Positions 1,484 to 33,663 of a stretch of DNA of 35,168 nt are shown here, in pieces. Origin of the DNA: Treponema sp. (GTDB lineage: Bacteria; Spirochaetota; Spirochaetia; Treponematales; Treponemataceae); NCBI GenBank assembly GCA_012520945.1, contig JAAYNH010000041.1, positions 1 to 35,168 of the forward strand. The letters are read 5' to 3'. Position 1 is the first letter of the stretch; each line of letters starts with the position of its first letter. The translations under genes were made by a program, and so were the position numbers. The notes under the pieces are model-generated. The model saw only the letters and a list, made by a program, of their open reading frames with translations, was not told the origin of the DNA and did no database searches.

Positions 1484-4324
1484 CTATTTGCTAGTCATAT
1501 TTACAACACCTGTCCAATCTTCACCAACACCTTTTTTGATTAACTCATCACATCGATCTGCAAAAACCAAAGCAGGACCATCATCAGAAAATGTATTATG
1601 TGAAAGATTAAACAATTTTTTTGCATTAACAAAATCTCTTTGTAAATATCTATCCATACCTTGATGAAAAATCTTAACCGATTCAAGTTCTTCATTCGAC
1701 ATTTCACTTTTTAATCCAACAATATTATATAACTGAACCGGTTGTTTTATTCCAACTACTCTAACTTTATCCAAACGACGTGCCACAAGCTTACCTTCAT
1801 TTTCTCCAGAGTTTGCTAAATTCCATGTAAACTCACTTGCTAAAATCCATGAATTATATATTTTATTTACACCTTCTAAACGTGCGGCAAGATTAACATT
1901 TGTTCCCATCATCGTATAGTTTTTCTTATTTTCAGTTCCCATATTTCCAACAACCATTTCACCGGAATTTAATCCAATGCGTGTAGAAATAGGCATAACA
2001 ATTTTATTTAGCACTTTATTATCACCGTTTTCATTTATTGGAGGCACATTACCGGTAATAATTGTACCGTTTTCAACCATTTTATCATTAAAAGCTTTTT
2101 CTGCTTGCTTCATGCGAACTGCAGACAAACATGCTCGCCAAGCATGGTCTTTTTGTGCAATTGGAGCACCCCAAAAACCGATAATTGCATCTCCTTCATA
2201 TTTATCGATTGTGCCGTCTTTTTCTAAAATTACATCTGAAAGTAATGTTAAATATTCGTTCAAAAAATTAACTAAATATTCAGCATCAACTCGTTCTGCA
2301 ATTGTAGAAAAACCGCGAATATCCGTAAAGATAGCTGTACAATCCATTGTATCACCACCTAAACGTAATTTTGACGGATCTTTAACAATTTCATCTACAA
2401 CAGTTTTAGAAACGTATGTTGAAAGAGTGCTTCGCAAAAATCTTTTATCTCTTTCTGCCATCACAAAGCGTAAAATCGTAGTTATAATATAAATTAATGT
2501 CATTATTAATGTTGGAATAATCAATGGCATATAAATTCTTGGTAAAACCATTAATAAAATAGAAAGTACGGGAAAAAGAAAAATGCCTGAAATTCCAAAG
2601 ATATTTTGTAATCGGTATCGTTTATTTCGCATAAAAGCAGTCATTAACAAAGCTAAAACAGATGCAATAGCAAAACCAACATACCATGGTAAAGGTACAA
2701 TAAACTGGTTTTGAATAATCATATTGTAAACATTTGCGTGTGTACCGACATTAGGATATCGTTCTTCAAAAGGCATAATTCCAAGATCAGTAGAAGCTGA
2801 AGCGGTGTTACCAATTACACAAACTGCATTTTCATAACGAGATTTCATTTCTGAAAATCTTGTGTTATATAAAGCTAAGTCGCTTGCAAAATCATCGAAC
2901 TTTTGTTTAACTGCTTCTTTAATTTCAATTATTTCTTGTGCGTTACCGATGTTCTTTATGGACGATAATAAAGATAAAATTTCATCAATGTAGGCAGAAT
3001 CAGTTAATTCAGAGCATTCACTAAAAAAGATTTTACGTTTTTCAAAATAATCATCAAAATTATCCGCTTCACCTTTGAGTAATGCATCTTTATTCTGAGC
3101 TAAAATATCATATTCTGCTAAAAGATATTGGACAGCATCATAATAACTAAGCATTTCACCTTCAGAATTTCCCAAACGGAAACTTCCAATTAAAGTTAAT
3201 TTTTCAATTAAATGTTCTTCAATTTCATCAATATCTTTTAAAAAGAAAACACTTTCATATTTAAAACTGTCAATATAACTTGTTGAAACCCAATTTATAA
3301 GCATTCGTCCATGTTCATCCAATGGAATACGAATATCGCGACGTTTTGTCTCTCCCGGAAATAAAGCATCTTTAACAATAAGACGATTTTTTGTGCGTAT
3401 AATTTCACCTGCATCAAACATATCCAGCATTGGTGCAAAAATTAACTGACCAATATATTGTCCATCGTATTCTCTTAAAAGTTCAATACGACGACGACTA
3501 CCATCAGAATCTATAACAACATTTGTAAATCCTGCTCCTTTTGCATTGTCCATAAGTTTTTTCAATGCCGGAGTAGCTCCGCCTTCAGCATTATGTTTAA
3601 TATTGTAATGAGCATTATCTAAAGGAATACGATTATGTACATCTTTTACATTATTAAGCAAAAATCTCTCTTTAACTAAAGCTATTAAATCATCAGGTAC
3701 TTTTTCTGTAACTTTAGTTGAATTTATTGTGAGCCACGTATTACCAAAATAACGAATTGCATTTGAAAAATACATATCATTATCGCGCAAAACTTTTTCT
3801 GCAGTATTTTCATAAATTTTATCAAATTCAGGGCTGAGATAAGAAGAAATTAAATCATCGGCAACTTCATTAGCATATTCAAGCGGTAAAGAGCCGTCAA
3901 CTATAGCACTTGATAATTCTTTTATCATGCCGGCTATATTTTCTTTTCCTTCTGCAAAAGTTTCCGGCATTTTTTGTACAATTTTTGGGTCAATTCCTAA
4001 AGGTGCTTCTTCAATATATTCAATATCGAAAACAGCAATTTTTGCACCGAATTCTCTCATGCGAATAATTGCATCTGCCAAAATATCACGGCTCCATGGC
4101 CAAACTCCAATTCGTTCCAAAGAAGCATCATCAACATTTACTGTCATAATATCTTTGTTTTGAGGCGTTTCAGGTTTTATGTGCATCAACATATCATACA
4201 CATTATGTTCTAATTTCTCAAAAACACCTAAGGAGCTTAGTATTCCGATAATCAATATAACTAATAAAGTTATCCAAAAATCAGGTTTTATAAAAGAAAT
4301 TAATTTTTTTACTGTACTTTTCAT
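1484..4324 (-). CDS. CHASE2-domain class III adenylate/guanylate cyclase
   Basis: This 946-residue membrane protein combines an extracytoplasmic CHASE2 sensor with a cytoplasmic class III nucleotide cyclase. There is one membrane helix at about 17-32, a long CHASE2 region to about 540 (WPWSRD at 75-80, GTHANVYNMI near its end), then three hydrophobic segments between about 545 and 622. The catalytic domain spans about 660-870. Metal-binding Asp668 (FTDIRGF) and Asp712 (KYEGDAI), base-selecting Lys708 and Thr808, and transition-state Asn811 and Arg815 (NLAAR) are all present, so the enzyme should be active. Lys plus Thr/Asp fits ATP and a cAMP product. Residues ~385-500 look like a helical insertion within CHASE2. 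The start codon has no Shine-Dalgarno sequence, but a TATACT box ends 7 nt before the ATG. The divergent neighbours are a small exported protein, a barrel and a FecR protein, which suggests an envelope-sensing module. Confidence 0.92.
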   Translation of the reverse strand: MKSTVKKLISFIKPDFWITLLVILIIGILSSLGVFEKLEHNVYDMLMHIKPETPQNKDIMTVNVDDASLERIGVWPWSRDILADAIIRMREFGAKIAVFDIEYIEEAPLGIDPKIVQKMPETFAEGKENIAGMIKELSSAIVDGSLPLEYANEVADDLISSYLSPEFDKIYENTAEKVLRDNDMYFSNAIRYFGNTWLTINSTKVTEKVPDDLIALVKERFLLNNVKDVHNRIPLDNAHYNIKHNAEGGATPALKKLMDNAKGAGFTNVVIDSDGSRRRIELLREYDGQYIGQLIFAPMLDMFDAGEIIRTKNRLIVKDALFPGETKRRDIRIPLDEHGRMLINWVSTSYIDSFKYESVFFLKDIDEIEEHLIEKLTLIGSFRLGNSEGEMLSYYDAVQYLLAEYDILAQNKDALLKGEADNFDDYFEKRKIFFSECSELTDSAYIDEILSLLSSIKNIGNAQEIIEIKEAVKQKFDDFASDLALYNTRFSEMKSRYENAVCVIGNTASASTDLGIMPFEERYPNVGTHANVYNMIIQNQFIVPLPWYVGFAIASVLALLMTAFMRNKRYRLQNIFGISGIFLFPVLSILLMVLPRIYMPLIIPTLIMTLIYIITTILRFVMAERDKRFLRSTLSTYVSKTVVDEIVKDPSKLRLGGDTMDCTAIFTDIRGFSTIAERVDAEYLVNFLNEYLTLLSDVILEKDGTIDKYEGDAIIGFWGAPIAQKDHAWRACLSAVRMKQAEKAFNDKMVENGTIITGNVPPINENGDNKVLNKIVMPISTRIGLNSGEMVVGNMGTENKKNYTMMGTNVNLAARLEGVNKIYNSWILASEFTWNLANSGENEGKLVARRLDKVRVVGIKQPVQLYNIVGLKSEMSNEELESVKIFHQGMDRYLQRDFVNAKKLFNLSHNTFSDDGPALVFADRCDELIKKGVGEDWTGVVNMTSK

Positions 4325-4331
4325 GAAAAAT

Positions 4332-4360
4332 AGTATATCATGTATTATAATATTTGCTAA
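4332..4360 (-). promoter_or_regulatory. Leaderless promoter of the CHASE2 cyclase
   Basis: On the minus strand an extended -10 TGA-TATACT (-10 at 4332-4337) lies 17 bp downstream of a TTAGCA -35-like box (4355-4360). Only 7 nt separate the -10 from the ATG at 4324-4322, so the start point should fall on or next to the ATG. The plus-strand promoter of the divergent gene (TATAAT, 4346-4351) sits inside this spacer, so the two promoters interlock. Confidence 0.6.
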
Positions 4361-4362
4361 GG
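4346..4362 (+). promoter_or_regulatory. -10 box and ribosome binding site for the 150-residue exported protein
   Basis: A consensus TATAAT at 4346-4351 is followed by AAGG at 4359-4362, which is 7 nt before the ATG at 4370. This gene therefore has a short leader with a Shine-Dalgarno sequence. No convincing -35 is seen. Confidence 0.5.
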
Positions 4363-4369
4363 GTATATT

Positions 4370-4822
4370 ATGAAAAAAATCACTAATTTATTTGTAATTG
4401 CTTTTTTCACGATTAGTTTTGTATCCGCTCAATCCGCTGATGCAGTAACTAAAGCGTTAGAAGCAAAAAAAATTACTTATGGTCAAGGTGCATACTTTGT
4501 GGCAACGGCTTTATCATTAATTTCCGACGCGGATTCTGAAGAAATGGCAATTAATGCTCTCGTAAATTCAGGTTACATTGACTCAGAATACAAAGCAAAC
4601 GAAATAATGCGCAATGATGATTTTAGTTTGTTATGCATGAAAGCCTGGAATATTAAAGGCGGACTTTTTTACACATTAACTAAGTCACGTCGTTATGCTT
4701 TTCGTGAATTCAAATCCTTAGGTTTTTTACCTTTTTCTGCAGATCCTTCATATGGAATTGCCGGCAGAAATGCACTTAATATAATGTCAGAATGCTCGGA
4801 ATTAAAAGGAGAATCAAAATGA
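4370..4822 (+). CDS. Small exported protein of unknown function
   Basis: This is a 150-residue protein with a clear cleavable signal peptide (KK, hydrophobic core, then SAQS around residue 20-22). The mature part is mostly helical in appearance, with ITYGQGAYFVATALSL near 35-50 and repeated Asn/Ala-rich helices. I do not recognise the family with confidence. It has a superficial resemblance to spirochaetal exported proteins that travel with FecR and CHASE2 genes. The stop codon overlaps the next start (ATGA at 4819-4822), so it is translationally coupled to the beta-barrel gene and probably works with it in the periplasm or outer membrane. The start is supported by the AAGG upstream and the complete signal peptide. 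Confidence 0.8.
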   Translation: MKKITNLFVIAFFTISFVSAQSADAVTKALEAKKITYGQGAYFVATALSLISDADSEEMAINALVNSGYIDSEYKANEIMRNDDFSLLCMKAWNIKGGLFYTLTKSRRYAFREFKSLGFLPFSADPSYGIAGRNALNIMSECSELKGESK

Positions 4823-5994
4823 AATCCATAATTAAATTTATTTTTTTGACAGTTTTCATTTTTCTCTTTGCAAATGCTTTTACGCTTGACTATGGTGGTA
4901 CACTTTCAAACTCAACCGGTATTAAAGGTGCTTTTAATGCACTTGAATTAGATCAAAATAACAAAGCCACATTATGGTTAAAATCTCCTTTTAATGAATC
5001 ACAAAATATGTATTTTGCAGCAGAAGGTTCTTATAAATTCAGCTATACCGGTGGCAATAATAATATAATTACAAATGAATTGGAACTGGGTTTATTTAAG
5101 TTTAGCATGATTTTACCTATGGAAAACAATTCCAGAATTAGATTGGATATTGGACGCATTAGTGCCTTTGATACTACAAGCTTAATCTTTGCACAATCAT
5201 CCGATGGAGCACAGTTTGCCATTTCAACTCCAAAATTCGTATGTTCTGTTTTAGCAAGCTATACAGGTCTGTTAAGTGCACATTCATACACTTATTTTGG
5301 GTACAATTATACGTATAATAACAATATTCTCTATCCTTTAGCACAAAAATTTTTCATTGTTGATGCTTTAATTAAATTACCTACACTTTTTGCAAAACAA
5401 GACTTAACTGCAGAATTTTTAGGATTTTTCAGTGGTGAAAAGGCAGTTTCAGACTATCACAGAATGTATGCAACACTCGGTTTAAACGGCGGTATTGCTA
5501 AAAATTTATTTTATATTTTTTCAACAACGTTTGGCTTTAACACCTCAAACGATCCATATAAAGGTTTTTCTAACTTATCAAATTTTGAGCTGTCTTATTA
5601 TCCTTCTTTTATGTCATCATCTTTCGCATGGATAACAACATATGCATCCGGAAATTCAGATAATGGATTAAAACGATTTATGCCATTTAACAAAATAGCT
5701 CCTGATATTAGTGGACATAAAGCATACAGTGGTCTTTTCAAAACAGGTTTTATGGCAACAATTCAGCCTATAACGAATTTTTTACTTGTTGCAGCAACGG
5801 ATTTATTTTTTATTTCCGATCCTGAATCCGGTACTAGCTTTGGGCTTGACGGTTTTCAATGGTCATTTAATGCACGTTGGCAAATTCTTAGCGATATTCA
5901 GCTATCATTAATTGCGGGACAGTTTTTGCCACTAATTAATAGTACTTCAGATGCAGATTTTTTTGCAACACTGAAGTTAGTTATTTCTTTTTAA
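4819..5994 (+). CDS. Putative outer-membrane beta-barrel protein
   Basis: This is a 391-residue exported protein. The start is placed at 4819 because AAAAGGAG lies just upstream and the signal peptide (MKSIIKFIFL... FANAF) begins exactly there. An in-frame ATG 27 nt earlier would only add a charged tail before the signal peptide. The mature sequence is rich in alternating polar/hydrophobic segments, Gly, Asn and aromatic residues, and ends in ...LKLVISF with a C-terminal phenylalanine, the usual sign of a BAM-inserted barrel. There are no cytoplasmic-type motifs. It lies between a small exported protein and a FecR protein, in one operon by spacing (ATGA overlap upstream, 18 nt downstream). 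Its function is unknown. A porin or a structural barrel are both possible. Confidence 0.78.
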   Translation: MKSIIKFIFLTVFIFLFANAFTLDYGGTLSNSTGIKGAFNALELDQNNKATLWLKSPFNESQNMYFAAEGSYKFSYTGGNNNIITNELELGLFKFSMILPMENNSRIRLDIGRISAFDTTSLIFAQSSDGAQFAISTPKFVCSVLASYTGLLSAHSYTYFGYNYTYNNNILYPLAQKFFIVDALIKLPTLFAKQDLTAEFLGFFSGEKAVSDYHRMYATLGLNGGIAKNLFYIFSTTFGFNTSNDPYKGFSNLSNFELSYYPSFMSSSFAWITTYASGNSDNGLKRFMPFNKIAPDISGHKAYSGLFKTGFMATIQPITNFLLVAATDLFFISDPESGTSFGLDGFQWSFNARWQILSDIQLSLIAGQFLPLINSTSDADFFATLKLVISF

Positions 5995-29014: not shown

Positions 29015-29416
29015 ATGAATATCTCTGATTTACTTTTATCCAATGGTATAAAACCATCTATTCAAAGGCTACAAATTTTTAATTTTTTATTTGAAAATAG
29101 AATACATCCTAGCGTTGATGAAATTTTCATTTCTCTTTGTTCCCAAATTCCAACCCTTTCAAAAACAACTGTATATAATACACTTAAAATCTTTGAAAAA
29201 AAAGGGCTTATTCAAACATTAAAAATTGAAGATGATGAATTAAGATTTGATATTGATATTTCAGACCATTATCATTTCAAATGTACAAAATGCAAAAAAA
29301 TTTTTGATATTTATGATAATAATACCAATACTACTCCTACTCTACCTCATGGTTTTATCTGCAAAAAAAAGCAAATTAATATGTGGGGTTTGTGCAAAAA
29401 TTGTTCAAAAAATTAA
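29015..29416 (+). CDS. perR: PerR-type Fur-family regulator
   Basis: This 133-residue metalloregulator has a winged-helix N-terminus (KPSIQRLQIFNFL, then SKTTVYNTLKIFEKKGLI) and a C-terminal metal domain. The five regulatory-metal ligands of B. subtilis PerR (His37, Asp85, His91, His93, Asp104) align with His31, Asp79, His85, His87 and Asp98. The structural zinc cysteines are 90/93 and 127/130. Asp79 (RFDI, not Glu) and Asp98 are the residues linked to iron-based peroxide sensing, so PerR fits better than Fur or Zur. It probably represses the rubredoxin-like gene upstream. No Shine-Dalgarno sequence or close -10 precedes the ATG. Its stop overlaps that of the convergent chemoreceptor gene. 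Confidence 0.88.
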   Translation: MNISDLLLSNGIKPSIQRLQIFNFLFENRIHPSVDEIFISLCSQIPTLSKTTVYNTLKIFEKKGLIQTLKIEDDELRFDIDISDHYHFKCTKCKKIFDIYDNNTNTTPTLPHGFICKKKQINMWGLCKNCSKN

Positions 29417-31578
29417 GAGAACGATGCAACAGTTCCTTCCATAATCATTGTTAATTCAATTAATTTTTCAGTACGACTTGCCATATCATCAAACATTTTT
29501 GACATTTTATTAAATTCAGCACTAACAGTTTCAATAGTTTTTGTATTGATATTTGAAATTTCCAAAGTACCTGACATAACATTATTTATACTTTGTGCAG
29601 ATTTATGCATCTCATTAAAGCTATTATTATTTGTTTCAACAACTTCTTGAACTTGATTAATAGCTTCAAGCAAACTACCGGATAATATTGACAATTGTTC
29701 AGCTGCTGTACTTACAGATTGAACTTGCTCATTTACAATATCCAACATATGTTGATTAGCTTCAATTCCTTCCGTAACCGCACTACGCATATTTGTTATT
29801 AAGTTTGTAATATTTGATGTAGATTCAACCGATTTGTCTGCAAGACCACGAATTTCTTGCGAAATAACCTTAAATCCCTTACCCCATTCTCCTGCATGTG
29901 TTGACTCGACTGCGGCATTAAATGCAAGCAAATTTGTTTGTTCCGTAATTCCGTCAATGATTCCAATAATCGATTCAATATTTTCACTATAATTTTTTAT
30001 TGCTTCTGTTTTTTGTGCTGATTTTTTTACTTGTTCGCCCATTATTTTTAATCCGGCAACTTGTGCTTCAAAAACACTAACCATTTGCGATAACTGATTT
30101 CCAATTTCTGTAGTTTCACGTACCGTTTTTAATTGAAATTCTTCAGCTTCAGCAGTTTTGTCAATTGATTCTGTCAAAAGTGCAACTGTTTTTGCACCAT
30201 AATCAACCGATTCATTTTGTTCATTTGATCTTTCAACAACCGTGTCCAAAAAAGCAAATACATTTTTTTGCATATCATAAACTTCCGTAAATCCGCTTTT
30301 ATATATATCCGAAAAATTTCTGAGTTGATTTGTACTCATTAATACCCATTCAATCATACTACGTAAACTCAGTGGTTCTGAATTGAATGTTGTAATTGCA
30401 ATGCCTTGAGATGCATATTGATTTAATATAGGTACAAATTCAGCAAAACCGACAAATGAACAAATACCGTTTAATCCTTTATTCATCTCTTGTATGATTG
30501 CCATATCTGCTTCATAAGCAACTTGACGAACAGTTTTTTTCATTTGATTAAGCACTTTTACAACAACTTCACAATTCATATTTAGTAGTTCTTTTTGTGC
30601 TTTTTCAATGCCTACTTTCATCTGGCAAAATGCAGTATTCCAATCTTCACACAAAACTAAAATACGAACCGGTTTTTCGGCTCTACCCATAGGTTTTGTT
30701 CCGGAATTATGAATATCTGCCATTTTATTATGTTCACGTAAATTATCGTTCCAATAATAATTTAAATCTTCTACAGTAATGGTTTTTAACGGTTGCATAA
30801 GTCTTGGTTGTGAAGGTTTCCAACTAAAAGCAATATGATTAAAAAGATGAACAACCGAATCGTAACCTTGTGCAAATGTGCTACAAATAACAGAACCTGA
30901 AACCAATCCATTACGCATTGCAATTGCAATATTTTCATCTAAATCATGACAAATTACAAATACTTGTCCTTGTTTATTAGATTCGGACAATCCTTTTGTA
31001 ACTCCAGAAACAGCAGAATTTCCTGTAATGTATACAGCATCAATTTTATCAGCTACTTTTCGAATATATTCACGAGCATTTTCTTGATTTGCATGAGCTT
31101 CAAAAGTTTCAATAATTTTAATTTTTGGAAAATCTTTTGTAATGGTATTAACAAAACTTCTGTGACGTTGTGCCATGATTAAAGCATTTAGCGATGAAGT
31201 AACTACTATAACAAGTTTACCGCCATTTTTTAATTTTTCACCGATATGTCGGGCACAAGCAATACCTTCAAACCAAGCATCCGTTCCAACATAGGCAACA
31301 CGCTTTAATGGTTCGCTAGTAACTTTATTAAAAGCCCTTTTCATACCATCAATTGATTCTTGCATAATTTTTGAAACACTTAGCTTTCTAACATCTAAGC
31401 GTTGGTCTAACATTCCAAAAGAAAACTTTGTTAAAATATCAGAAACATTATTCATTTCAAGAGCTAATTCATCTTCACATTTTTTATTTTTATTTTTTTC
31501 TTTTAAATATAAAACTACAAGAAAAAACAATGCAATTAATAATAAAGCAGAGAGTAAAATAAATAAAGCTAAAAACAT
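29413..31578 (-). CDS. Methyl-accepting chemotaxis-like protein with a lobe-swapped binding-protein sensor
   Basis: This is a 721-residue receptor. One membrane helix at about 3-25 is followed by KEKNKNKK, so by the positive-inside rule the rest is cytoplasmic. No second helix is evident. Residues ~92-275 resemble the C-terminal lobe of a type 1 periplasmic binding protein (VAYVGTDAWFEG ... KLVIVVTSS ... AVYITGNSAV ... TITVEDLNYY). Residues ~303-400 resemble its N-terminal lobe (VRILVLCEDWNTAFCQMKVG ... GIAITTFNSEPL). The normal order is reversed. The MCP signalling domain fills ~440-721, with the hairpin tip near 541-580 (ITEQTNLLAFNAAVESTHAGEWGKGF), slightly diverged from the usual EAARAGE. 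GAGGTG lies before the ATG. It would signal to CheA/CheW in response to an internal ligand. Confidence 0.88.
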   Translation of the reverse strand: MFLALFILLSALLLIALFFLVVLYLKEKNKNKKCEDELALEMNNVSDILTKFSFGMLDQRLDVRKLSVSKIMQESIDGMKRAFNKVTSEPLKRVAYVGTDAWFEGIACARHIGEKLKNGGKLVIVVTSSLNALIMAQRHRSFVNTITKDFPKIKIIETFEAHANQENAREYIRKVADKIDAVYITGNSAVSGVTKGLSESNKQGQVFVICHDLDENIAIAMRNGLVSGSVICSTFAQGYDSVVHLFNHIAFSWKPSQPRLMQPLKTITVEDLNYYWNDNLREHNKMADIHNSGTKPMGRAEKPVRILVLCEDWNTAFCQMKVGIEKAQKELLNMNCEVVVKVLNQMKKTVRQVAYEADMAIIQEMNKGLNGICSFVGFAEFVPILNQYASQGIAITTFNSEPLSLRSMIEWVLMSTNQLRNFSDIYKSGFTEVYDMQKNVFAFLDTVVERSNEQNESVDYGAKTVALLTESIDKTAEAEEFQLKTVRETTEIGNQLSQMVSVFEAQVAGLKIMGEQVKKSAQKTEAIKNYSENIESIIGIIDGITEQTNLLAFNAAVESTHAGEWGKGFKVISQEIRGLADKSVESTSNITNLITNMRSAVTEGIEANQHMLDIVNEQVQSVSTAAEQLSILSGSLLEAINQVQEVVETNNNSFNEMHKSAQSINNVMSGTLEISNINTKTIETVSAEFNKMSKMFDDMASRTEKLIELTMIMEGTVASFS

Positions 31579-31680: not shown

Positions 31681-33663
31681 TTAATCAATAAAAAGACTAT
31701 CAATTTCTGCTTTATATTTTATAGTAATTTTATGTCGCATATATTCTTGCTTACCGGAAAGTTCTTCACCAACCTTAAAACTTTCCGCAAGTAATGCAAA
31801 GCGGAAAACTTTTTCACAAGGCCTAAAACCTGTTTTAACATTTACTCTATCATCAATTTCTTTACGAATTAAATCTTTTATAAATTGCTCATCTAAAAGT
31901 TTTTCATAATCTAAAAAAGCCGGTCCGTTTTCTTTTGCATATTCAAGAATTGCATCACGTGATGGCACAATTAATGCACAAACATAACGCTTGTCTTGTC
32001 CTAAAAGCACAGCGGATTCAATATAATCGCTACCACAAATTGCAAATTCAATGGCTATAGGTTCAATATTTTCACCACCTAGCAAAACAATAGTGTCTTT
32101 TGCACGCCCAGAGATTTTAATTTCATCATCATATGTCATGATTCCTAAGTCTCCGGTGTTAAGCCAACCGTTAGAATCTATAATTTGTTCTGTTAAATCA
32201 GGTCGTTTATAATAACCTTTCATTACTTGATCACCTTTTGTTACAATGATGCCTTGTTTTCCCGGTTTTAAGGCTTCCATGGAAACTATCTTTCCATTTT
32301 CTTCCGGAACAACTTTTAATTCCATACTTGGAATAATTGAACCTACACAACCCGGACGAGGAAAAGTATAATCACGAACAGAAAGAATCGGTGCTGTTTC
32401 AGTCATACCATAACCTTCCAACAAAGGAAAATTTATCGCTCTATAAAATGCATCAGTTTCAGGTTGTAATGCTCCGCCACCGGAAATTCCTGCTACAAAC
32501 TTTCCACCAAGTTTTGAACGAATATTTTTATAAACTAATTTTTCACCTAAAGCATATAATGGAAATAATAAAATCATAGGAAAAAAACCGACAATTGTAT
32601 CAATAAAACGCGGTTTTTTATTGAATCTACAAACTTGTCCTTTTACATGTTCTTTTGCCCAAACATATTTTTTCCCAACGCTTATAAAAAATTTGAACAT
32701 AACGAATTTTATACCACCAGTTTTTTTCATTGCACGAAATACACCGTTTGCTAACGTTTCCCATAATCGCGGAACACCACACATCATTTCAGGTTTAATT
32801 ACTGCCATATCTGCAAGCATAATTTGACCGACAGGTTTTGAATATACTAAAGCACTTTGAAATGTTAATACAATATATTGTATGGCTCGTTCAAAACTGT
32901 GCCAAACAGGTAAAACAGTTAACCATTTTTGATTAGGTTTACCCGGCAAAAGATAATGAACGGTTTCCAATTGAGCTATGTAGTTTCTGTGAGTAAGCAT
33001 TACACCTTTAGGAATTCCTGTTGTTCCGGATGTATAAATTAAAGTAGCGGTATCATTTGGAAGAATCTCACTCATAATTTTTTCAATTTCAGTTACTTTG
33101 ACAGGATTTTCCGTAATAATCTTTTTTCCTTCTTCCAATAGTGATGCAAAAGAATAAATTTTAATTCCTACTTCATTTGCTTTAGCCTCAATTATTTTTG
33201 CATCTTCTCCTGTAGGCATATCAAAAAATATAGCTTTTTTCAAAAGAGAAATTTCTTTATCATTATTTAATACATTTAGAAGTTGTCTTGAAGTTTCAAA
33301 AAAACAGATTTTTGCTTCTGAATGTGAAATAATAAAACTAACTTCACTTGCAGTTGAATCACAACCACGTGGCACATCAGCACCACCTAAAGATAAAACA
33401 GCTAAATCTGCTAAAAGCCATTCTCTACGATTGTCAGAAATTAATGCAACGTGACTATTTTTTTCAACACCAAGTTTTTGTAAACTTATAGCTAATGCAA
33501 TAATTTCATTATACACACTTTCATAACTATACTCTTGAAAATTACCATTTACATCTTTTGCATATTGGGCAATATTTTTCGGACATGTTTCTTTGAGTGA
33601 TTTAATTAACATTGGCAAAGTTTGTGGCAAATTATCATTTTTCACATATTTACGTCGTCTCAT
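31681..33663 (-). CDS. Long-chain fatty acid-CoA ligase (AMP-forming)
   Basis: This is a 660-residue ANL-superfamily enzyme. The AMP-binding P-loop is LIYTSGTTGIPKG (208-220), the adenylate motif is EGYGMTET, and the C-terminal hinge region is GWLNTGDLGIMTYDDEIKISGR followed by AKDTIVLLGGENIEP, as in long-chain acyl-CoA synthetases of the FAA1/FadD15 type. It activates fatty acids taken up from the surroundings for lipid synthesis, which fits host-dependent spirochaetes. Chain-length preference cannot be read. CGGAG lies 6 nt before the ATG. There is no signal peptide, so it is cytoplasmic or membrane-associated. Confidence 0.93.
   Translation of the reverse strand: MRRRKYVKNDNLPQTLPMLIKSLKETCPKNIAQYAKDVNGNFQEYSYESVYNEIIALAISLQKLGVEKNSHVALISDNRREWLLADLAVLSLGGADVPRGCDSTASEVSFIISHSEAKICFFETSRQLLNVLNNDKEISLLKKAIFFDMPTGEDAKIIEAKANEVGIKIYSFASLLEEGKKIITENPVKVTEIEKIMSEILPNDTATLIYTSGTTGIPKGVMLTHRNYIAQLETVHYLLPGKPNQKWLTVLPVWHSFERAIQYIVLTFQSALVYSKPVGQIMLADMAVIKPEMMCGVPRLWETLANGVFRAMKKTGGIKFVMFKFFISVGKKYVWAKEHVKGQVCRFNKKPRFIDTIVGFFPMILLFPLYALGEKLVYKNIRSKLGGKFVAGISGGGALQPETDAFYRAINFPLLEGYGMTETAPILSVRDYTFPRPGCVGSIIPSMELKVVPEENGKIVSMEALKPGKQGIIVTKGDQVMKGYYKRPDLTEQIIDSNGWLNTGDLGIMTYDDEIKISGRAKDTIVLLGGENIEPIAIEFAICGSDYIESAVLLGQDKRYVCALIVPSRDAILEYAKENGPAFLDYEKLLDEQFIKDLIRKEIDDRVNVKTGFRPCEKVFRFALLAESFKVGEELSGKQEYMRHKITIKYKAEIDSLFID

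Follow-up and report, generated by a model that had tools for sequence, protein, structure and literature searches.

A Treponema chemoreceptor whose sensor, predicted to face the cytoplasm, is a circularly permuted type I binding-protein domain

The sensor of a 721-residue chemoreceptor encoded in the window (the whole 35,168-nucleotide stretch of Treponema sp. DNA analysed here) contains the two halves of a type I binding protein in reverse order, and profile, structure-prediction and comparative evidence supports its identification as a circularly permuted type I binding-protein domain. The ORF list places the receptor gene on the minus strand at 29413..31578 (721 aa plus stop), and the Pfam profile MCPsignal (PF00015) matches residues 514–667 with 98.3 bits against a cut-off of 34.6. 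The protein is a methyl-accepting chemotaxis protein (MCP), and the ORF and the MCPsignal match confirm the chemoreceptor of this length that had been proposed from the sequence (the original prediction). Its sole membrane helix is N-terminal (aa 5–23, 31510..31566, minus strand; hydropathy 3.31, within AF2 helix 2–53) and is followed by a linker (aa 24–86, 31321..31509, minus strand) defined by the hydropathy scan and AF2, with an F..G.L motif and a helix at 70–86. We assign this linker only tentatively to HAMP: a G-[DN]-L motif is seen repeatedly in the relatives, and the HAMP profile PF00672 matched only one of 27 family members at E<0.01 between the membrane helix and the sensor. The MCP signalling hairpin (aa 405–720, 29419..30366, minus strand), based on Pfam and AF2, comprises helix 405–561, the tip at 562–566 and helix 567–720.

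The reversal of the lobes is most directly seen in matches to Peripla_BP_4 (PF13407), for which the sensor segments were searched separately. The first segment (aa 88–247, 30838..31317, minus strand) matches profile positions 90–252 and corresponds to the C-terminal half of a type I binding protein, that is, the C-lobe and crossovers. The second (aa 303–403, 30370..30672, minus strand) is the N-terminal lobe according to both profile and AF2, ending at the hinge sequence TTFNSEPL; within it, residues 309–403 match positions 4–92, at 19.6 bits alone, which is weak for a single sequence. The two pieces are complementary and meet at position ~90 with nearly no gap or overlap, so that the receptor covers the full profile, but in reversed order. 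Between them (aa 248–301, 30676..30837, minus strand), family comparison and AF2 place the end of the C-terminal half, with conserved W/P and N..YW motifs, and a new linker that connects the former C-terminus with the former N-terminus. The motifs VAYVGTD (aa 92–98) and TITVEDLNYY (~266–275), from which the reversal was originally proposed, are both present. When the sensor sequence was un-permuted, a single PF13407 stretch spanning positions 5–252 was restored, with 98.6 bits; the sensor in its native order scores 83.6 bits, split over two stretches. Similarly, in a search of PDB sequences the best XylFII stretch of the native sensor covered only the C-half (query 9–169), but the un-permuted sensor aligned to XylFII collinearly and at near full length (16–262). 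The same relationship is found with a family HMM built from un-permuted sensors: permuted receptors match it as two blocks in reverse order, while soluble ABC binding proteins match it as one collinear block (the best being L070, L071 and L072, with 243, 217 and 215 bits, respectively). Profile annotation that depends on order detects only half of such permuted sensors.

Structure prediction yields a similar picture. The original prediction had proposed modelling residues 85–410; AF2 applied to residues 81–406 (326 residues, 11 sequences) modelled the sensor well, with a pLDDT of 89.6 and a pTM of 0.85, and was confident across both lobes. The last sensor strand (ITTF, aa 394–399) is equivalent to strand 4 and is kept with the moved N-lobe. 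Alignments by Foldseek to ordinary sugar-binding proteins (GanP, AraP and others) mostly span ~180–220 columns, and VIA-align superposes the sensor on ordinary binding proteins with Z of 20–24 over 176–212 residues, mainly model residues 1–213. In the full-length model, which was run as a monomer and has lower confidence at the MCP tip, helices 2–53 and 70–86 precede the sensor, and an unbroken helix (405–561) leads from it into the hairpin.

The permuted order is found in at least 35 distinct bacterial proteins, counted after dropping loci retrieved twice, from Spirochaetota, Bacteroidota/Ignavibacteriota MAGs and a Chloroflexota MAG lineage. Fixation of the order across these 35 proteins rules out an assembly error. 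The search for orthologues in other Treponema genomes suggested at the outset recovered relatives with the same order at 60 and 52% identity; the order recurs in other Spirochaetota, in Bacteroidetes-labelled and Melioribacter MAGs, and in a Brevefilum-labelled (Chloroflexi) MAG. Matches at E≤1e-40 occur in 3 of 345 genomes of the phylum of the Melioribacter MAG and in 4 of 301 genomes of that of the Brevefilum MAG. The canonical order, N-lobe before C-lobe, is absent from the window protein and from all permuted family members. Based on Pfam, 27 full proteins, a set that includes one truncated by its contig end (L051), carry Peripla_BP_4 in 27 cases, MCPsignal in 25 and GAF-GGDEF in one. This last protein (L047, ORF 3665–5848 of a Treponema MAG, on a contig shared with L012) has the permuted sensor on GAF-GGDEF, with no MCP domain, and is a predicted diguanylate cyclase.

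In a tree that contained no TpMglB-2 homologue, the nearest normal-order relatives are the ABC lipoproteins L070–L072, which are placed among the permuted proteins, though not with strong support. The topology test does not reject one clade of all permuted sensors (p-AU 0.62), and we therefore do not claim re-permutation or multiple origins from this placement.

We consider it unlikely that the two segments are independent half-domains without a common cleft, or that a decayed fold now serves only as a spacer or dimerisation element. The weak match of the N-lobe alone would fit such a reading, as would the alteration of several sugar-contact positions in the clade of the window protein. However, the profile pieces are complementary rather than overlapping, both segments occur together in 35 of the 35 proteins, and the AF2 model is confident over both lobes. 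Conservation of pocket residues also argues against decay. We mapped the pocket using RbsB and MglB sequences, with the numbering checked; in the family alignment the equivalent of RbsB R141 is kept in all rows, that of D215 in nearly all and that of Q235 in most. Retention of these residues makes a cleft ligand likely for the permuted sensors. In the window clade, Q235 is replaced by C, N190 by G and F15 mostly by A, and the window protein has A at F15. These replacements suggest that the putative ligand of the window protein probably differs from ribose or glucose, and binding in this clade could be altered or lost.

The orientation of the permuted sensor can be deduced from its position between the membrane helix and the MCP domain. 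The MCP tip is necessarily cytoplasmic. Hydropathy scans of the window protein and its relatives predicted no membrane segment between sensor and MCP; thus, a cytoplasmic sensor is supported, by inference from established MCP biology. The window protein has one strong hydrophobic segment (aa 5–23), as originally predicted, directly followed by KEKNKNKK, which is positive and hence inside, and hydropathy reveals no second membrane helix before the signalling domain. An in-frame stop lies one codon 5′ of the ATG (MFLAL start), so no further helix is concealed in this frame. Members of the permuted family have one or two membrane segments, N-terminal only (a single helix or a two-helix hairpin), with no further clear membrane helix before the MCP tip in a scan in which the sequence of L047 begins at a run of unknown bases, leaving its N-terminus unseen, and L051 stops before the tip. 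It is very improbable, in our estimation, that the sensor instead lies outside, as a periplasmic or surface binding protein joined to an MCP, and that a membrane helix between it and the hairpin was missed. Most type I binding proteins are extracytoplasmic, and borderline hydropathy peaks do occur inside the N-lobe segment of two relatives (L039, 1.54; L049, 1.56–1.7), but these peaks fall in strand or helix segments of the fold and are missing in the window protein and the rest. Further points against an outside sensor are the unbroken course of helix 405–561 into the hairpin, the positive cluster directly after the only membrane segment, and the presence in the same genome of another cytoplasmic type I sensor on an MCP.

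That second protein (L111; G000:C19:7000-11000) is a soluble MCP whose N-terminal, LacI-like type I sensor has the normal order, and thus the window receptor is not the only MCP with a cytoplasmic flytrap sensor. The genome also encodes CheA and CheW domains, as well as a protein (L112; G000:C77:24000-28500) with a LacI-like type I sensor and a C-terminal AraC-type DNA-binding domain. Within the window, a small ORF (29015–29416, plus strand), which by eye resembles a Fur/PerR-type regulator, converges on the receptor gene with a 4-bp overlap. A gene 102 bp upstream of the receptor gene and in the same direction (31681–33663, minus strand) resembles, again by eye, a long-chain acyl-CoA synthetase; a similar neighbour was not evident at the other permuted-receptor loci inspected. 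No transporter genes adjoin the receptor gene among the window ORFs, and the gene neighbourhoods of permuted receptors, inspected for ligand clues, differed between the loci examined, with none conserved.

The sequence SEPL occurs at both ends of the sensor in the window protein (aa 88–91 and 400–403), as the original prediction had pointed out in proposing a tandem duplication followed by loss of the outer lobes. This observation does not extend to the family: EP is found at the N-end in 7 of 24 members, and only the window protein and its relative L040 have full SEPL at the two ends. In a family-wide profile comparison of N-end with C-end, the hinge repeat ranked 5567th of 47278 segment pairs, which is not above background, and we dropped the repeat as evidence for duplication. 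Duplication and outer-lobe loss are compatible with the observed order; since SEPL is restricted to two proteins and the family test was negative, this origin is plausible but unproven. One 616-aa frame elsewhere (L097; G511:C36:33000-37500), beside an RbsA-type ATPase gene, contains two near-identical complete type I domains in tandem; it could represent the kind of duplication able to precede permutation, or a MAG assembly artefact.

We think it probable that the protein, a chemoreceptor anchored in the membrane, uses a permuted Venus-flytrap domain to sense a small molecule of the cytoplasm, with hinge closure moving the attached helices. The permuted domain would be spliced in after the HAMP-like helix and before the MCP hairpin. 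Since the chain is re-cut at the inter-lobe hinge, entry to and exit from the sensor lie at the same hinge: helix 70–86 would join the sensor where the C-lobe half begins, and where the N-lobe half ends the chain would run straight into MCP helix 405–561. Binding of a ligand in the cleft, for which a sugar or sugar-like metabolite is the likeliest candidate, would cause the lobes to close or twist about the hinge; this movement would displace the two attached helices against each other, change the packing of the receptor dimer and thereby alter CheA activity. The analysis shows the permuted order, the predicted fold, the lack of a predicted membrane segment between sensor and MCP, the conserved pocket positions and the presence of CheA and CheW domains in the genome; from these we infer ligand binding, the closure mechanism and the signal's direction. 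In protein engineering, binding proteins are permuted to let the motion of the hinge drive a reporter fused to them, and the receptor, if this mechanism is true, would be a natural use of the same trick, with a flytrap wired into a receptor coiled coil. On balance, we lean towards the broader view that an independent natural permutation, cut at the inter-lobe hinge, converted the binding protein of a transporter into an insertable module for cytoplasmic signalling; this module would have spread across several phyla and at least two outputs (MCP and GGDEF) because a coiled coil can be driven directly from its two ends, both of which exit at the hinge.

The closest solved relatives of the sensor by sequence and structure are GanP, AraP, XylFII and the T. 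maritima glucose-binding protein, all of which differ from it in having normal order, in being secreted and in lacking a signalling domain. The LacI-type MCP of the same genome (L111) resembles the receptor in feeding a cytoplasmic type I sensor into an MCP hairpin, but its sensor is in normal order, N-terminal and of the Peripla_BP_3/Peripla_BP_1 type, and it has no membrane anchor. A literature search for permuted flytrap receptors, with a minority of subscription papers within its coverage, found a sole natural case, TpMglB-2 (Tp0684), a T. pallidum lipoprotein termed 'Type Ic' that is a natural permutation of a type I binding protein (PMC4990184) and a functional flytrap in vitro (PMC4990184; PDB 5jx2, 6bgc, 6bgd). 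The novelty implied by the original prediction is thus limited, as a permutation of this fold in Treponema has been published, but the site of the cut is different. In both proteins the N-lobe strands are at the C-terminus; however, the TpMglB-2 N-lobe strand order of 5-4-6-1-2-3 places its cut between strands 3 and 4 (PMC4990184), while the cut in the receptor follows strand 4, at the hinge, and so lies one strand further on. Moreover, TpMglB-2 is an exported ABC-transporter lipoprotein with no signalling domain, whereas the receptor is an MCP fusion behind a membrane anchor. We regard it as quite unlikely that the sensor descends from the 'Type Ic' lipoproteins, by transfer of the same permutation event into a receptor. 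Both occur in Treponema and have a permuted type I fold, and Foldseek aligns the sensor model to TpMglB-2 end to end (375–381 columns for 6bgc, 5jx2 and 6bgd), but the sensor is only 10–13% identical to TpMglB-2, compared to 23–26% for normal-order GanP, and its nearest normal-order relatives, in the tree without TpMglB-2 homologues, are L070–L072. Based on the different cut and the lower identity, a separate permutation event is the simpler reading, and the hinge-cut permutation is apparently distinct from that of TpMglB-2 and undescribed. If so, the type I fold would have been permuted a second time, at another cut, and the receptor would offer a system in which to test how closure of the flytrap is relayed to a chemoreceptor.
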